The position numbers were made by a program, and so were the translations under genes. From Alphaproteobacteria bacterium MarineAlpha6_Bin4 (GTDB lineage: Bacteria; Pseudomonadota; Alphaproteobacteria; GCA-002720895): 46,468 nt of DNA. The notes under the pieces were generated by a model, which saw nothing but the letters and a program-made list of their open reading frames with translations, did not search any database and was not told where the DNA came from. Below are positions 18,378 through 25,432 of this stretch, one piece after another; within the stretch, counting starts at the first letter, position 1, and each line of letters opens with the position of its first letter. Location of the stretch: positions 1-46,468 of the forward strand of contig PTKO01000004.1 of NCBI GenBank assembly GCA_002937775.1. The letters are read 5' to 3'.

Positions 18378-20264
18378 CTATAAGCCAAAAACTTTATTTG
18401 CTTTATAACCTTTTTTTATATTCCTATACCTTGAAATTGCTAAATTTGTAAAATACTTAGAGTATCCGTGATATGTAATATAAAATACTTTGGGGAAACC
18501 AACAGCATTAAAGGTATTGTCTGTCCATAATTTTTTTTTATCAAAACTTCTTTTTAAAAATTCAATACCTTTCAATATTGAAGGATCATTTACATTTTCT
18601 GTAGTAAGTAAACTCAAAATCGCCCAAGATGTTTGACTTGGCATACTATTTATTGAAGGCATTTCCTTTTTTTCTTTCCAATATGTGGCGCAATCTTCTC
18701 CCCAACCTCCATCTTCATTTTGTTTACTTTTTATCCACGATATAGATTTTTTTATGTATTTTTCATCCATATTTTCTCCGGAAGCTTTTAAAGCATGTAA
18801 AACTGACCAAGTCCCATAGATATAATTTGTACCCCATCTACCAAACCACGATCCATCATCTTCTTGCTCTTTTTTTAAAAATTTCACTCCTTTTTCAATT
18901 TTTTCTTTGTACTTATTTTTATCAATTTGACTAAGCATAGAAATACACCTTGCTGAAACATCAGCAGTTGGAGGATCTAGAAGTGCTCCATGATCAGCGA
19001 ATGGTATATTATTTAAATAATGATAAGTGTTATCTTTATCGAATGCCCCCCAACCCCCATTTTTTGACTGCATTCCAGAAATCCATTCACATGCGACTTG
19101 AATTATTTTTTTATTTTTATATCCTGCACGATCTAAAAACATAGCCACAACCGCTGTATCATCTACATCAGGATAAAAGTCATTGTCATATTGAAAGGCC
19201 CATCCTCCTGGTATTAGATTTTTATTATTGTGCGCCCAATCACCTTTTAAATTTAAAATTTGTTTTTTTTCCAACCATTTACAAGCTTTCTTAATTGCAG
19301 GATTTTTTAAAGTTAAACCTGATTCTAATAGCGATAGTCCGTTCAGACCAGTATCCCAAATTGGAGAAAAACATGGTTGGCAATAACTAAAATCTTTTTT
19401 GTGTGTAATTAAATTTTTAACACTTTTTAAAGAAACTTTATATTCTTTTTTAAGACCGAGTAAGTACATAGCTTTAGTACAGTTTGTCATTGCTGGAAAA
19501 ATAGCACCCAAACCATTAATTCCATTAAGACGATCAACCATAAAAGTTTTAGCTTTATCAATTGCTTCTTTCTTAATATTTTTTGGGATAAAAGGTAATA
19601 AAATTTTTAAAACTTTATCAATTATTTTGAATAAATAAAAAAAGAAAAAAGATTGTTTTCCATAATTTATATTTAATTTTTTTTTGTTTTCTAAAAGTTC
19701 TTTTATATAAATCCTTTTAGGGTTTTTTGCTTTTGGTTTTTTATCTAAAATTATTAAAAGAGGCACCACAACCGTTCTTGACCAGTATGATATTTTGTTA
19801 ATGTGAAATGGGAACCATGAAGGTAAAAGCATTATTTCTATAGGCATACAAGGAATTTTTTTCCATGAAATTTGTTCAAATAATGCAAGGCTTATTTTAG
19901 TAAAAACATTACAATTTTCAGCTCCTCCTAATTCTAAAATTTTGTCTTTTGCTTTAACCATAAATTTTTCTGATATTTTTTCACCACTAAGTTTTAAAGC
20001 ATAATATGCTTTTACACTTGTGCTAATATTAGATTCTCCCTTCCAAAATAATGGCCAACCTCCATCAGGATTTTGTTTTTTTTTGATATATGCTGCAAGT
20101 TTTTTTTCTAGCTTTTCTTCTTTTAAACCTAAGAAATGATTCATTAATATATATTCGGACGGTATTGTTGTATCAGCTTCTAATTCATATACCCAATGAC
20201 CATCTTTTTTTTGTTCACTAAGTAGTTTCTTTTTGCAGTGCTCTAAGATTTTGTTTAATTTCAT
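18378..20264 (-). CDS. shc: Squalene-hopene cyclase
   Basis: The enzyme folds squalene into hopene/hopanol at the inner membrane. The 628-residue protein has the catalytic DXDD motif as Asp366-Val-Asp-Asp369 (DVDDTAVVAMFLD) and several QW repeats, for example KKQNPDGGWPLFW, SGMQSKNGGWGAFD, KEQEDDGSWFGRWG and KSKQNEDGGWGEDCATYW. These are the two alpha-barrel domains in the usual order and length. Its ATG follows the hpnE stop codon with no gap, so it is the last gene of hpnC-hpnD-hpnE-shc and translated by coupling. Confidence 0.97.
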   Translation of the reverse strand: MKLNKILEHCKKKLLSEQKKDGHWVYELEADTTIPSEYILMNHFLGLKEEKLEKKLAAYIKKKQNPDGGWPLFWKGESNISTSVKAYYALKLSGEKISEKFMVKAKDKILELGGAENCNVFTKISLALFEQISWKKIPCMPIEIMLLPSWFPFHINKISYWSRTVVVPLLIILDKKPKAKNPKRIYIKELLENKKKLNINYGKQSFFFFYLFKIIDKVLKILLPFIPKNIKKEAIDKAKTFMVDRLNGINGLGAIFPAMTNCTKAMYLLGLKKEYKVSLKSVKNLITHKKDFSYCQPCFSPIWDTGLNGLSLLESGLTLKNPAIKKACKWLEKKQILNLKGDWAHNNKNLIPGGWAFQYDNDFYPDVDDTAVVAMFLDRAGYKNKKIIQVACEWISGMQSKNGGWGAFDKDNTYHYLNNIPFADHGALLDPPTADVSARCISMLSQIDKNKYKEKIEKGVKFLKKEQEDDGSWFGRWGTNYIYGTWSVLHALKASGENMDEKYIKKSISWIKSKQNEDGGWGEDCATYWKEKKEMPSINSMPSQTSWAILSLLTTENVNDPSILKGIEFLKRSFDKKKLWTDNTFNAVGFPKVFYITYHGYSKYFTNLAISRYRNIKKGYKANKVFGL

Positions 20265-21533
20265 TTAAATTTTTTTTATATAATTAGCCACATTATATCC
20301 AGATGTAATTGCACCTTCAATTGTTGCTGGTAATCCAGTATCAATCCAATCACCTGCTAAATAAATATTTTTATATTTAGTATGCATACTTGGTTTTCTA
20401 AAAAGTTCTTTAGGACTTTGAACAAATGTTGCCATTTTTTCTCTTATAATTTTATATTTTGGTTTTTCACATGTTTTTAAATTAAATACTTTTTTTACAT
20501 CTTCCCATACTAAGTTTGAAATATCATTATTATTTAGTGAATTTAGATAATTAGCTGCACTTATAGTAATTGATAATATATTTTTTTTTTTAAATATCCA
20601 ATCAACCGTTCCTCCAATTACGCCAATAAAAAAAGATCCTTGTCGAATTTTTATTTCTTTATGTTTTTTGCTTAATTTAAAGTGAATATTTAATATACAG
20701 TTAGTTTTTTTAGGTGTTTTTAAATTTGGCAAAATTTTCGATGCAATATTTGGAGTTACTGCTAAGACAACGCTTTCATTCTCGCTAATTTTTATAGAGT
20801 TATCATTAAACACCATCTCATTTGCTAAATTATTTTTAAATTTAATTTTCTTTAACCTAGCATTAAATTTTATTCTACCACCCTGTTTTAAAATCTTTTT
20901 AATTGCAGGATTAATTAAGCTATCTTCAAGAGAATTTTTTACTACAAATGGTTGTAGAGGATTCTTACTAAAGAATAATATTTTTATAATAATTTTTCTT
21001 AATAATCTTGCTGATGCCTCATTAGGGTGTGTATTAAGTACTGCAATCGTAAAAGGTTTCCAAAATTTATTATAAATATTAGTATTTTTTTCTAATAGAT
21101 TTGCAACTGTTTCATTTTTTTTTGCAAAAATTAATTTCAAACTTTTAATAAAATCTAAAATAGAAACATTTTTAGGCCTGCATGAACTAAAAAGAATCCA
21201 CCATGGTAAAAAAAAAGAAAAAGGTTTAACGTCCCAAACTTCAAGTTTCTTAATATCAAAAAAAGGATAAAAAGTTTTATCATTAGCTATTAGTCTTTCA
21301 GTTGCCTTTATTTGTTTTAAATAATTAAAAGTATTTTTATATGCTTTTATTATTAAGTGATTTCCATTATCTAACTTACATTTAAGATCTTTATCTACAT
21401 AAGATCTACATCTGCCACCTAATAATGAAGTTGCTTCGTAAAGAATAATTTTTTTATTATTTTCTTTTAATAAATTAATAGCACAAGATAACCCGGCTAG
21501 TCCCGCACCAATTATGTGTATAGATTTTTTCAA
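20265..21533 (-). CDS. hpnE: Hydroxysqualene dehydroxylase (FAD-dependent)
   Basis: HpnE reduces hydroxysqualene to squalene. The 422-residue protein has the FAD-binding IIGAGLAGLSCAINLL at residues 8-23, LYEATSLLGGRCRSY shortly after, and a C-terminal NIYLAGDWIDTGLPATIEGAITSGYNVA flavin-contact segment, all typical of the amine-oxidase-like HpnE group. The start codon is TTG at 21533, directly after the hpnD stop codon (TAATTG); no better start is available, and the alignment of the dinucleotide fold supports it. It is flanked by shc with zero spacing. Confidence 0.95.
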   Translation of the reverse strand: MKKSIHIIGAGLAGLSCAINLLKENNKKIILYEATSLLGGRCRSYVDKDLKCKLDNGNHLIIKAYKNTFNYLKQIKATERLIANDKTFYPFFDIKKLEVWDVKPFSFFLPWWILFSSCRPKNVSILDFIKSLKLIFAKKNETVANLLEKNTNIYNKFWKPFTIAVLNTHPNEASARLLRKIIIKILFFSKNPLQPFVVKNSLEDSLINPAIKKILKQGGRIKFNARLKKIKFKNNLANEMVFNDNSIKISENESVVLAVTPNIASKILPNLKTPKKTNCILNIHFKLSKKHKEIKIRQGSFFIGVIGGTVDWIFKKKNILSITISAANYLNSLNNNDISNLVWEDVKKVFNLKTCEKPKYKIIREKMATFVQSPKELFRKPSMHTKYKNIYLAGDWIDTGLPATIEGAITSGYNVANYIKKI

Positions 21534-22358
21534 TTAGAAAATTATTCCTTTAATAAAAAGATAAAATTTTTCTATTTTTGTTAAATTAACTCTTTCTTCA
21601 AAACTATCCCAACCTTTTTTTTTTAACTTTTTTAATAGCAGCTTATAAGTGTTCATCATTAAAATTGCTGATTTTAGATTTTTTTTTTCTGATAATTTTA
21701 AATATTTATTTGCAAGTTCAAAATTTTTGTCCGCATATTCTGATAATTTCTCGCATGCTTCTGGAAATTTTTTATCATTTAATATATGTGTTATTTTATT
21801 TTTTTTTATTCCTGAACTATTTAATATTTCAATAGGAATATATAATCTGCCCATTTTTTCATCTTGCTTTATATCTCTTAGTATATTTGTTGTTTGTAAA
21901 GCATCTGCTAGACGTAGACCAAAATTTTTTGAATTAAAATTATAGCATCCAAAGATTTTTAAACTTATCATTCCTACAGCACCAGCCACTCTATAACAAT
22001 ATAATTTAAAAATATTATTTTTTGGACAAATCATAATATTGTTTATATCCATTTCCACACCTGAAATTATGTCTAAGAAATATTTTTTATCTAATTTGTA
22101 TTTTTCTATGTAGTATTTTAAATTTCTTCTAAAAGCATTATTCAAATTATCTCTATATATTTCATTAATTTCTTTTTTTAATTTTTTAATCTTTCTTTTT
22201 TTTTCTTTTTCTGAATTATTGTTGTCAGCAATTGAATCTGCTTTTTTACAAAAATCATATATTGAAAACATTGCGTCTCTTTTTTCTTTGTTTAAAATTC
22301 TTATTCCCCAGTAAAATGAAGATTTTGGATACTTAATTATATTTTTGTTTTTTAACAA
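21534..22358 (-). CDS. hpnD: Presqualene diphosphate synthase
   Basis: HpnD condenses two farnesyl diphosphates into presqualene diphosphate. The 274-residue protein has SSFYWGIRIL near residues 13-22, the first Asp-rich site ADSIADNNN near 40-48, VAGAVGMISLKIFGC, and the second site ALQTTNILRDIKQDEKMGRLYIP near 155-178, where both Asp residues and RLYIP are the family signature. The start is a TTG at 22358, 21 bases after the hpnC stop; it gives the normal HpnD N-terminus. hpnE follows with no spacing. Confidence 0.94.
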   Translation of the reverse strand: MLKNKNIIKYPKSSFYWGIRILNKEKRDAMFSIYDFCKKADSIADNNNSEKEKKRKIKKLKKEINEIYRDNLNNAFRRNLKYYIEKYKLDKKYFLDIISGVEMDINNIMICPKNNIFKLYCYRVAGAVGMISLKIFGCYNFNSKNFGLRLADALQTTNILRDIKQDEKMGRLYIPIEILNSSGIKKNKITHILNDKKFPEACEKLSEYADKNFELANKYLKLSEKKNLKSAILMMNTYKLLLKKLKKKGWDSFEERVNLTKIEKFYLFIKGIIF

Positions 22359-22379
22359 GAATTTTAAATTATTAAATAA

Positions 22380-23195
22380 TTAAAAAAAGGTTTTTGCGAA
22401 ACATTTCATGTAATCAAACTTATTTAAAACTACTTTATTTTTTAATGGATCTTTTTTTTTTAATAATTCAATTAAGCTTTTTGCAATTTCTAAAATAAAA
22501 GATGTTTCATTTAATAATTTTTTATTTTTCATTAACTTCTTATTTTTTTCTGCTTGTTTAATTAATTTTTCTGTATGAATTAAAATATCATTTATTGCAA
22601 ACCTTAAATTTTTTTCAGTGTACCCTTTATTTAACTGATCCAATTTTACATTATGTTTTTTTAGAAAAGTTGAAGGTAAATAAACTCTATCTATGTTTTT
22701 ATAATCATCTTTACAATCTTGAATATGATTTAAAATTTGAAGCGCAATACATAATGGATCTGAATATTTATAGGTTATACTTTGTTCTTTATGTAGATCT
22801 ATCACAAATCTTCCAACAGGAACCGCTGAATGTTTGCAGTAATTTATTAGCTCAGACCAATTTTTGTATCTTTTTTTAACTGCATCTTGTTTAAATGCTT
22901 TTAATAAATTTAAAGCGTGATTTAAATTAATCTTATTCTCTTTGCATACTTTTTTTAGCTTAAAAACTTTAGAAACTTTTGCTTTGTTACCTTTAATAGC
23001 TTCTTTAAATAAATTTAATCTCCTAATTTTTTCTTTTGGATTTAATTTTGGGCTATCAGCAATATCATCAGCTGCTCTTGCAAACTTGTAAAAAACTAAT
23101 ATTTGAGGCCTAATTTCTTTTGAAAGCAACCATGATCCAACAGGAAAATTCTCTTGTTTATGATTTTTTGTTAATGTAGTTTCTATAGTATTCAT
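22380..23195 (-). CDS. hpnC: Hydroxysqualene synthase
   Basis: HpnC converts presqualene diphosphate to hydroxysqualene. The 271-residue protein shows ENFPVGSWLL near residues 16-25, the first Asp-rich site FARAADDIADSPKL near 38-51, VPVGRFVIDL, and the second site ILNHIQDCKDDYKNIDRVYLP near 153-173. It resembles HpnD because the two are paralogs; the NFPVGS start and the position before hpnD identify HpnC. It is the first gene of the minus-strand hopanoid operon and shares a 71-base divergent promoter region with the lipoprotein gene at 23267. Confidence 0.94.
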   Translation of the reverse strand: MNTIETTLTKNHKQENFPVGSWLLSKEIRPQILVFYKFARAADDIADSPKLNPKEKIRRLNLFKEAIKGNKAKVSKVFKLKKVCKENKINLNHALNLLKAFKQDAVKKRYKNWSELINYCKHSAVPVGRFVIDLHKEQSITYKYSDPLCIALQILNHIQDCKDDYKNIDRVYLPSTFLKKHNVKLDQLNKGYTEKNLRFAINDILIHTEKLIKQAEKNKKLMKNKKLLNETSFILEIAKSLIELLKKKDPLKNKVVLNKFDYMKCFAKTFF

Positions 23196-23266: not shown

Positions 23267-23899
23267 ATGATTACTAAATTTCTAAAAATTTTTATTTTAA
23301 TAGCTTTTATTATTACTAGCTCATGCGGAATAAAAAAACGCTGGGAGGAAAGTGGAGTTTACACCAATCCTCAATCACAAGAATCTACATATATATGGAA
23401 AAAAGGAAAACAATATATAGCAATAGTTAAAACAATACCAGTCAAAGGTAGAGATAAAAACAAAACAATACATCCAATTAATATTTCTGTAGATACAATT
23501 TCAAATTCATTAGAAAAAATTAATTATGTATTGATTGATAAAAAAGGAAGAAAGAGTGAAAGAAAACCAGTTTTTTCAGAAGCAAATATTGAATTATTAG
23601 GTAAAAAAATTCCAGAAGCTTTAAAACAAGCAAATAGAAATCAAGACATATTATTTGAAGTATTTCAATTAAGAAAGAAATGGTTTGTGCTTCCTACAAC
23701 TGTTGATACAACGGCCGGTTATCTTTTTATAGAAAGAGGAAGAATAAATATTATTTTTGAAAAAATAAATGAAGATTATCAAGGTTATGATTATGATATT
23801 AAAAGAGTAATTTCTGGCGATGCTAGCGATGGAGTGTACTCAGGAAAAAATAAAATAGGTAAAGGTTGGGTTGTTTTAACTTCTAAATCGTGGAACTAA
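23267..23899 (+). CDS. Putative lipoprotein of unknown function, first of a tandem paralog pair
   Basis: I do not recognise the family. The 210-residue product begins with a basic, hydrophobic signal segment ending in TSSC (Cys20), a weak but plausible lipobox. The mature part contains YIWKKGKQYIAIVKTIPVKG, then TIHPINISVDTI, and ends with DGVYSG...GWVVLTSKSWN. The same three blocks, in the same order, occur in the next gene, so the two arose by duplication. It is probably attached to the outer membrane. It stands divergent from hpnC and upstream of a beta-barrel protein gene; any link to envelope lipids is only a guess from position. Confidence 0.78.
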   Translation: MITKFLKIFILIAFIITSSCGIKKRWEESGVYTNPQSQESTYIWKKGKQYIAIVKTIPVKGRDKNKTIHPINISVDTISNSLEKINYVLIDKKGRKSERKPVFSEANIELLGKKIPEALKQANRNQDILFEVFQLRKKWFVLPTTVDTTAGYLFIERGRINIIFEKINEDYQGYDYDIKRVISGDASDGVYSGKNKIGKGWVVLTSKSWN

Positions 23900-23916
23900 A
23901 TTTAAAAAAATTTTTA

Positions 23917-24603
23917 ATGAAAACTCTTATTTCTTCTTTCTTTATTTTTTTTTTAATATTTTTTCAATTAAAGGCTGATTCATCAATAATATATAAGGAT
24001 GGTTATAAAAATCCATTAAACGTACTTAATTCTTTTTTATGGAATGAAGATGAAAAAGGAAAAATCGGTCTTATTTCAAGTATACTAGTTAAAAATAGAG
24101 ATTTAAAAGCTACAGTTCATCCTATTTTAATAGAACCTCATAAAATAAAAATAGCTTTAAATAAAATTAGATATAAAGATGAGGATAAAGAATTAGATGA
24201 TTTTATTTTTAAAGATGAAAACTTAGAAATTATATCTAAATACGCATCTAAAGGCCTATATTTAGCTAATAAAAAACAAGATGTTATTTTTCAATTTGCG
24301 AACAAAGATAACAAAAAAAATATAACTCAAGGAATAATATTTGCACAAAAAAAATCTTTAAATTTTATTTTTTTTCAAATCAATGATTGCCAAACAGAAT
24401 TTAAAAGTAAAAAAAAATATACCAAAAAAAAAAAAGAATTTTACAAAAATCATCCTAATTTCTCTTTTAAAAAAAAAGAAAGTAAATGTGATAGAAAATC
24501 GAAAACAATATCTGTTACATCTAGCGAAGGTATCTATAAACGTAATACCAATAATGATTACTCATGGATAATCTTCACTTCAAAATCTTGGGGAAGTAAG
24601 TAA
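23917..24603 (+). CDS. Exported protein of unknown function, second of the tandem paralog pair
   Basis: The product has 228 residues from the ATG at 23917, which I prefer to a GTG at 23890 because it starts a clean signal peptide (cleavage likely after KA at residue 20). It shares with its upstream neighbour a block SFLWNEDEKGKIGLISSILV, then ATVHPILIEPHKI and the end EGIYKR...SWIIFTSKSWG. It lacks the lipobox Cys and has gained a lysine-rich insertion around residues 165-190 flanked by two Cys. The gap to the upstream gene is 17 bases, so they form an operon. Function unknown. Confidence 0.75.
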   Translation: MKTLISSFFIFFLIFFQLKADSSIIYKDGYKNPLNVLNSFLWNEDEKGKIGLISSILVKNRDLKATVHPILIEPHKIKIALNKIRYKDEDKELDDFIFKDENLEIISKYASKGLYLANKKQDVIFQFANKDNKKNITQGIIFAQKKSLNFIFFQINDCQTEFKSKKKYTKKKKEFYKNHPNFSFKKKESKCDRKSKTISVTSSEGIYKRNTNNDYSWIIFTSKSWGSK

Positions 24604-24652
24604 TAAAAGTATATTTTGTATATTTGGCATAGTAATTGCTTGATATTTATAA

Positions 24653-24658
24653 AAGGAG
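24653..24658 (+). promoter_or_regulatory. Ribosome binding site of the TorF-type porin
   Basis: AAGGAG lies nine bases before the ATG at 24668. It is one of the few good Shine-Dalgarno sites in the window and fits an abundant outer-membrane protein. Confidence 0.75.
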
Positions 24659-24667
24659 TATTTTATT

Positions 24668-25432
24668 ATGAAGAAAATTATGTTACTTACCTCAGCGGCT
24701 TTGTTTGCTAGCAATATTGCATACGCTGCTGAATTAAATCTTTCTCGTGAATCTTTAGAAAAAGCAACAGGCGTAAGCATTGGTTATAATGCTAGCTGGT
24801 CATCCCATTATGTTTGGAGAGGAGAAAGTCAAAGTTCAAAAGATATGTCACCTGCTATAGGAGTTGATCTTGGTCATTCTAGTGGGTTGTATTTAGGGGC
24901 TTGGACTGGATCTATAACTAATGGTACCCATGGAGCAGAATTTGATGTCTATGCAGGTTATGCTTTTGACCTTGGTCCATTAAGTTTTGATATTGGTGAT
25001 CTATATTATTTATATCCTGGAGAATCCAACGAAGTTCAGTTTAATGAATATTATTTTTCAGTCGGAACTGAAATCCCTGTCAAAGCAATTGCTGATGATT
25101 TTAGTGTATCGCCCTATGTTTATTTAGCATATGCACCTAAGTGGTTTGGAGCAAATACCCCAGATGCTATATATAGTGAATTTGGTATAGAAGCTCCAAT
25201 TCCTGGAACATCTTTATCATTAGCCTACACTTATGGAAATGTAGATATAGATGATCTAGAAGGAGATGCTGAAAAAGCTAATGATGTTGATAGTTGGGAT
25301 TATTACTATATAACTTTAGGATTTGGAGATGTGTTAGGATTAGACACTTCTATAACATATCATAATGCACCTGGATATAGTGGTGATGCAGGGCAAGAAG
25401 GTTTTTTTATATCACTTGGACACGAATGGTAA
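24668..25432 (+). CDS. TorF-family putative outer-membrane porin
   Basis: The 254-residue product has a signal peptide ending AYA at residues 18-20, then SIGYNASWSSHYVWRGESQSSKDMSPAIGVDLGHSSGLYLGAW, the YVWRGxSQS signature of the TorF/gcw_chp outer-membrane family. Alternating aromatic strands run to the end, which finishes in Trp (HEW) as beta-barrel proteins do. It is acidic in its loops and less lysine-rich than its neighbours. The family is of unknown transport specificity. It ends in a 21-base convergent overlap with the heme A synthase gene. Confidence 0.88.
   Translation: MKKIMLLTSAALFASNIAYAAELNLSRESLEKATGVSIGYNASWSSHYVWRGESQSSKDMSPAIGVDLGHSSGLYLGAWTGSITNGTHGAEFDVYAGYAFDLGPLSFDIGDLYYLYPGESNEVQFNEYYFSVGTEIPVKAIADDFSVSPYVYLAYAPKWFGANTPDAIYSEFGIEAPIPGTSLSLAYTYGNVDIDDLEGDAEKANDVDSWDYYYITLGFGDVLGLDTSITYHNAPGYSGDAGQEGFFISLGHEW

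Follow-up and report, generated by a model that had tools for sequence, protein, structure and literature searches.

A Tandem Pair of Exported Core-Domain Proteins from a Pfam-Unnamed Alphaproteobacterial Family, with a Tentative Role as Porin Accessories

Two neighboring open reading frames (ORFs), here called A and B, in contig PTKO01000004.1 of Alphaproteobacteria bacterium MarineAlpha6_Bin4 (assembly GCA_002937775.1) raise the question of what a duplicated pair of apparently exported proteins might do at the cell envelope. Taking positions 1 to 46,468 of the contig as the window, we found that the pair belongs to a real family that has no Pfam name and extends further than the first-pass annotation of this DNA had seen. 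Most full-length relatives lie directly beside a gene for an outer-membrane pore. This suggests, short of proof, that these proteins aid such pores in working or staying in place, a function proposed with moderate confidence for the family as a whole. For A and B themselves we tentatively favor a role as accessory subunits of outer-membrane porins, as lineage-specific duplicates of the family core that lack its usual C-terminal tail.

A and B are tandem paralogues

ORF A (23267 to 23899, forward strand) encodes a predicted lipoprotein of 210 amino acids without a SHOCT tail, and ORF B (from an ATG at 23917 to 24603, same strand; listed from a GTG at 23890) encodes a predicted soluble periplasmic protein of 228 amino acids; each amounts to one core domain of about 200 residues. 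Both ORFs lie where they had been reported, and their proposed tandem paralogy is borne out by every comparison. BLASTP aligned A with B over 209 columns at 27% identity (E 2e-18), profile-profile comparison with hhalign (four-row profiles) gave E 1e-19 and a probability of 99.2%, and the local alignment of the mature proteins scored 195, against a mean of 37.5 (standard deviation 6.3, maximum 71) in 2000 shuffles (z = 25). Because the shuffles preserved composition, the lysine-rich bias of these proteins is accounted for. Alignment statistics that failed to support homology had been named as one result that would count against the pair, and they proved to be far above chance; judged by their sequences, A and B are beyond doubt true homologues. 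The three ordered blocks that had been noticed are real in both products, and conservation also continues between them, through a helix (FSExNLELLSKxxxxALxxANKNQDVxF) and a hairpin (TAGxxFxxxxxLNLIF).

Export of both products is likewise supported, by a lipobox cysteine in A and a cleavable-type signal in B. The lipobox Cys20 of A (23324 to 23326, forward strand; judged by eye) and the Gly21 at +2 are invariant in 4/4 orthologues, with a hydrophobic signal before the cysteine and no Asp at +2. The suggestion that the two proteins differ in anchoring stands with one correction: the lipobox is canonical in three of the four orthologues, and the window copy has Thr at -3 (TSSC). A thus has the sequence features of an outer-membrane lipoprotein, and would be placed in that membrane. 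For B, the listed GTG at 23890 overlaps the stop codon of A; since the orthologues begin 10-20 bp past that stop codon, the ATG at 23917 is the likely start. The B signal peptide (23917 to 23976, forward strand) would be cleaved after LKA and before DSS, a site assigned by eye and kept in position in 4/4 orthologues. Further downstream, Cys158 and Cys191 in the 228-residue numbering (24388 to 24489, forward strand) are both invariant in 4/4 orthologues and probably form a disulfide. They enclose the lysine-rich segment described earlier as an insertion. Other members of the family have a long loop at this place too, so it may be A that was shortened and not B that gained an insertion.

A third paralogue and a wider family

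Profile searches revealed that the pair is not the whole family; members of the usual build end in a SHOCT tail, and their genes adjoin a different porin. A third paralogue, C, is found at a contig edge in the window's own genome (G000:C8:1-1000, locus L003), where it is incomplete; a prolyl-iminopeptidase-like gene follows it there. C is complete in three genomes of the genus (G001, G002 and G004), at about 338 amino acids. Its signal and core are followed by a coiled coil rich in Gln (by eye) and by a C-terminal SHOCT hairpin that matches PF09851 at E 3e-6 to 7e-5; a Pfam scan of A and B gave no PF09851 match. Profile-profile comparison showed C to be homologous to both. A 12-row profile detected the core in eleven genomes of the class outside the genus and in G422, making 12 sampled alphaproteobacterial genomes. 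Most class-wide matches of the full-length profile were to SHOCT alone and were excluded from the relatives. Full-length relatives outside the genus have about 320-380 amino acids and a SHOCT-like tail, and a 24-row core profile reached further into the phylum, to remote relatives that also have SHOCT tails (G606 at 4e-10; G562 and G587 at about 1e-3). The loci of the remote relatives (L071 1120-2007, L072 1339-2256 and L073 958-1893) have fabI/glucokinase-like or rsmD/coaD-like genes, named by eye, as neighbors rather than porins. Searches of viral contigs and of plasmids found no relatives in either.

The core is recognizable by an HP motif, a central helix ending A....D..F, a hairpin G..F......N and a C-terminal Trp strand, all of which A and B possess; the residues P, F, A, D, F, G, F, N and W are invariant in 24/24 rows of the core alignment. 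No Pfam family matches any of these core sequences (0/24 members), so that the description of the family as unrecognized was right as regards Pfam. In a midpoint-rooted tree with long branches, A and B form sister clades apart from C and all other members (support 100/99). Most simply, the lineage leading to A and B would have separated from that of C long ago, lost the tail and been duplicated in tandem.

Structure models, built from six-row alignments only, reached a mean predicted local distance difference test score (pLDDT) of 71.5 for A (80-90 in the core) and 66.1 for B. Both have their main elements in the same order: two strands, a helix, two strands, a long helix, three long strands and short strands. 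Foldseek against the PDB gave no match for either model (best E 0.27 for A and 0.23 for B), and three profiles run against PDB sequences had no significant hit. At this model quality, the lack of a fold match does not prove a new fold.

A named family that comes near the core is that of the LA_1326/LA_4305 lipoproteins of Leptospira (NF047484), which weakly match its central part in 9/24 members (best E 2e-4). The scores, about 16-21 bits (17.9 for A, 15.9-19.6 for C), compare with a curated cut-off of 100; across the window's own genome the model found only C, and in 14 control genomes nothing. These matches suggest a remote kinship, far below the cut-off. A literature search on the function of LA_1326 found no paper, and one on TorF-family porins nothing useful.

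C mostly adjoins one porin subfamily

In G001, G002 and G004, C lies directly downstream of a Porin_4-like porin gene on the same strand (the G004 porin being incomplete at a contig end), and a homologous porin gene is directly upstream of C, again on the same strand, in 10/12 loci outside the genus. Overall, the same porin subfamily adjoins C in 13 of 16 loci. In one other, in G422, the gene before C is barrel-like by its signal and C-terminal Phe, with no Pfam match; at the C locus of the window's own genome the contig ends, and the upstream side is not seen. The C-linked porins compared are 27-87% identical, with every pairwise E below 1e-23, and the genes on the outer side of the C/porin loci vary between lineages. 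A profile of this porin, run across 289 genomes of the class, scored below 1e-100 in ten, and each of the ten carries C; only G002 among them belongs to the genus, the other nine being from outside. Three loci have two or more tandem porin copies or fragments upstream of a single C (L082 1-3636, L083 500-4035 and L077 1862-4640).

Four genomes of the class have a weaker porin homologue (1e-65 to 1e-70) with no C beside it; C was looked for next to the porin in these four, and class-wide only where the samples overlap. These porins (L098-L101) have a SHOCT-like hairpin, e.g. TDELLKQLKAKGILTEQEFQAL, right after the signal peptide, scored by Pfam at 2e-4, 0.01 and 0.02 in three and recognized by eye in the fourth. 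In the C-linked porins the barrel starts straight after the signal peptide, with no such hairpin. The SHOCT module thus seems, from the sequences, to sit either on the porin or on its neighbor, which permits an argument of the gene-fusion type from few and related cases. SHOCT is a small module common to many otherwise unrelated proteins, and has been proposed to serve in oligomerization or binding (PMC3581485).

Conserved neighborhood of the pair

Downstream of B lies a putative porin of the TorF/Gcw_chp family (24668 to 25432, forward strand; PF09694 E 2.6e-21, TIGR02001 E 1.6e-23), a neighbor of the pair and not a homologue. On the other side is a divergent hpnC-like squalene synthase gene (22380 to 23195, reverse strand; TIGR03464 E 4.6e-73, just below the cut-off). 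The order hpnC-A-B-TorF is identical in 4/4 genomes of the genus holding the region, so the linkage to a TorF-type porin extends to relatives; these are the window, L013 (which matches contig G003:C18), L014 (which matches G001:C9) and L005 (from G004). Deposited records label two of the four as Pelagibacteraceae metagenome-assembled genomes. A and B were not found in G002 or in G005, a genome from the family's one other genus, and their absence is uninformative because hpnC and TorF are also missing from both assemblies. The hpnC gene belongs to a hopanoid-type run (18378 to 23195) with squalene-hopene cyclase-like, hpnE-like and hpnD-like genes, all but hpnC named by eye.

Pairwise ratios of nonsynonymous to synonymous substitution (dN/dS) were 0.13-0.40 for A and B and 0.10-0.17 for hpnC and TorF, by the NG86 method and only rough given high dS. 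These values indicate purifying selection on both A and B and uphold the view that both duplicates are retained under selection; the persistence of the tandem is not in itself a sign that the two proteins interact. A possible promoter-like site for TorF lies at 24640-24669, and in a scan for promoters and terminators such sites were no commoner than in shuffles.

What the family may do

The tentative porin-accessory reading would work as follows. The usual form, C, would be a lipoprotein or a cleavable-signal exported protein with an alpha/beta core of about 200 residues, a linker or coiled coil, and the SHOCT hairpin. The core of C would lie against the barrel from the periplasmic side, while the tail would make the contact for which porins with no C beside them use a SHOCT-like hairpin at their own N-terminus. 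The tail has been lost from A and B: A would be anchored to the outer membrane through its lipid, whereas B would be free in the periplasm, with a positively charged loop that is probably closed by a disulfide. Both would probably act for a barrel of the outer membrane, the neighboring TorF porin being the most plausible candidate. A precedent is PapS of Rhodospirillum rubrum, an alphaproteobacterial outer-membrane lipoprotein that acts with the porins Por39/Por41; its N-terminal domain binds porins, and an OmpA-like domain binds peptidoglycan (PMC11369160). A, B and C have no Pfam match to an OmpA-like domain and are therefore not PapS as defined; by analogy, they may work like its porin-binding half.

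Several observations weigh against this reading. Since the C-linked porin and TorF have no BLASTP match to each other, a porin role for A and B is an extrapolation from C. Porin binding by all three proteins is something that we infer only. The C locus of G142 has no porin nearby, and in G606 the remote relative is flanked by a fabI-like gene on one side and a glucokinase-like gene on the other (by eye). The linkage of C to the porin could reflect shared expression alone. The SHOCT argument draws on four porins, three with weak Pfam scores and one recognized by eye, and SHOCT did not oligomerize in the one published test (PMC3581485), a result that leaves room for binding of another partner.

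A different account, which we think possible though somewhat unlikely, makes the proteins general lipoproteins of the envelope whose ligand is not a porin but peptidoglycan, a lipid or one another, and which are co-expressed with abundant porins and no more. A and B would then be a lipid-anchored and a soluble partner, for example a heterodimer acting in envelope maintenance. No porin adjoins the remote relatives in G606, G562 and G587, none is in sight in G142, and TorF may have its own promoter-like site, though with the reservation about shuffles given above. Co-expression alone sits poorly, however, with the repeated occurrence of the same subfamily of porins beside C (13 of 16 loci), across several families and among otherwise differing neighbors, and with the porin, at E < 1e-100, never occurring without C. 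An improbable alternative makes A and B chaperones or assembly factors that escort or quality-check nascent TorF-type barrels in the periplasm, with the lysine-rich loop of B as the site that binds acidic segments of the client; they would then not be stable subunits of the finished pore. Gene order beside barrels, the combination of one anchored and one soluble member, and the positive charge of the B loop would all suit such a role; yet Pfam, PDB sequence and fold searches showed no likeness to known periplasmic chaperones, and a subunit role would account at least as well for C being so strictly paired with a single subfamily of porins. It is very unlikely that the pair has nothing to do with porins and, as lineage-specific duplicates, has been drifting toward another function close to the hopanoid genes, such as the handling of hopanoids in the outer membrane. 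Its position beside the hpnC-like gene is kept in four genomes, but hpnC is on the opposite strand, and C and the wider family are mostly not beside hopanoid genes (squalene-synthase-like genes, named by eye, lie a few genes off in L082 and L083).

Returning to the porin-accessory reading, its boldest extension, which we consider rather unlikely as a whole, is an unnamed and widespread alphaproteobacterial system in which a dedicated partner protein supplies in trans the SHOCT hairpin found in cis on related porins, and from which one streamlined marine genus made a split, tail-less pair, one lipid-anchored and one soluble, for a second, unrelated barrel. Porin-lipoprotein complexes have only recently been shown to shape cells in alphaproteobacteria (PapS, PMC11369160). 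If the reading is true, a second family invisible to Pfam would be tied to one porin subfamily, giving a concrete partner gene for the porins of poorly studied bacteria, and the SHOCT hairpin would gain a testable role as a contact at the periplasmic side of the barrel, made in cis or in trans.
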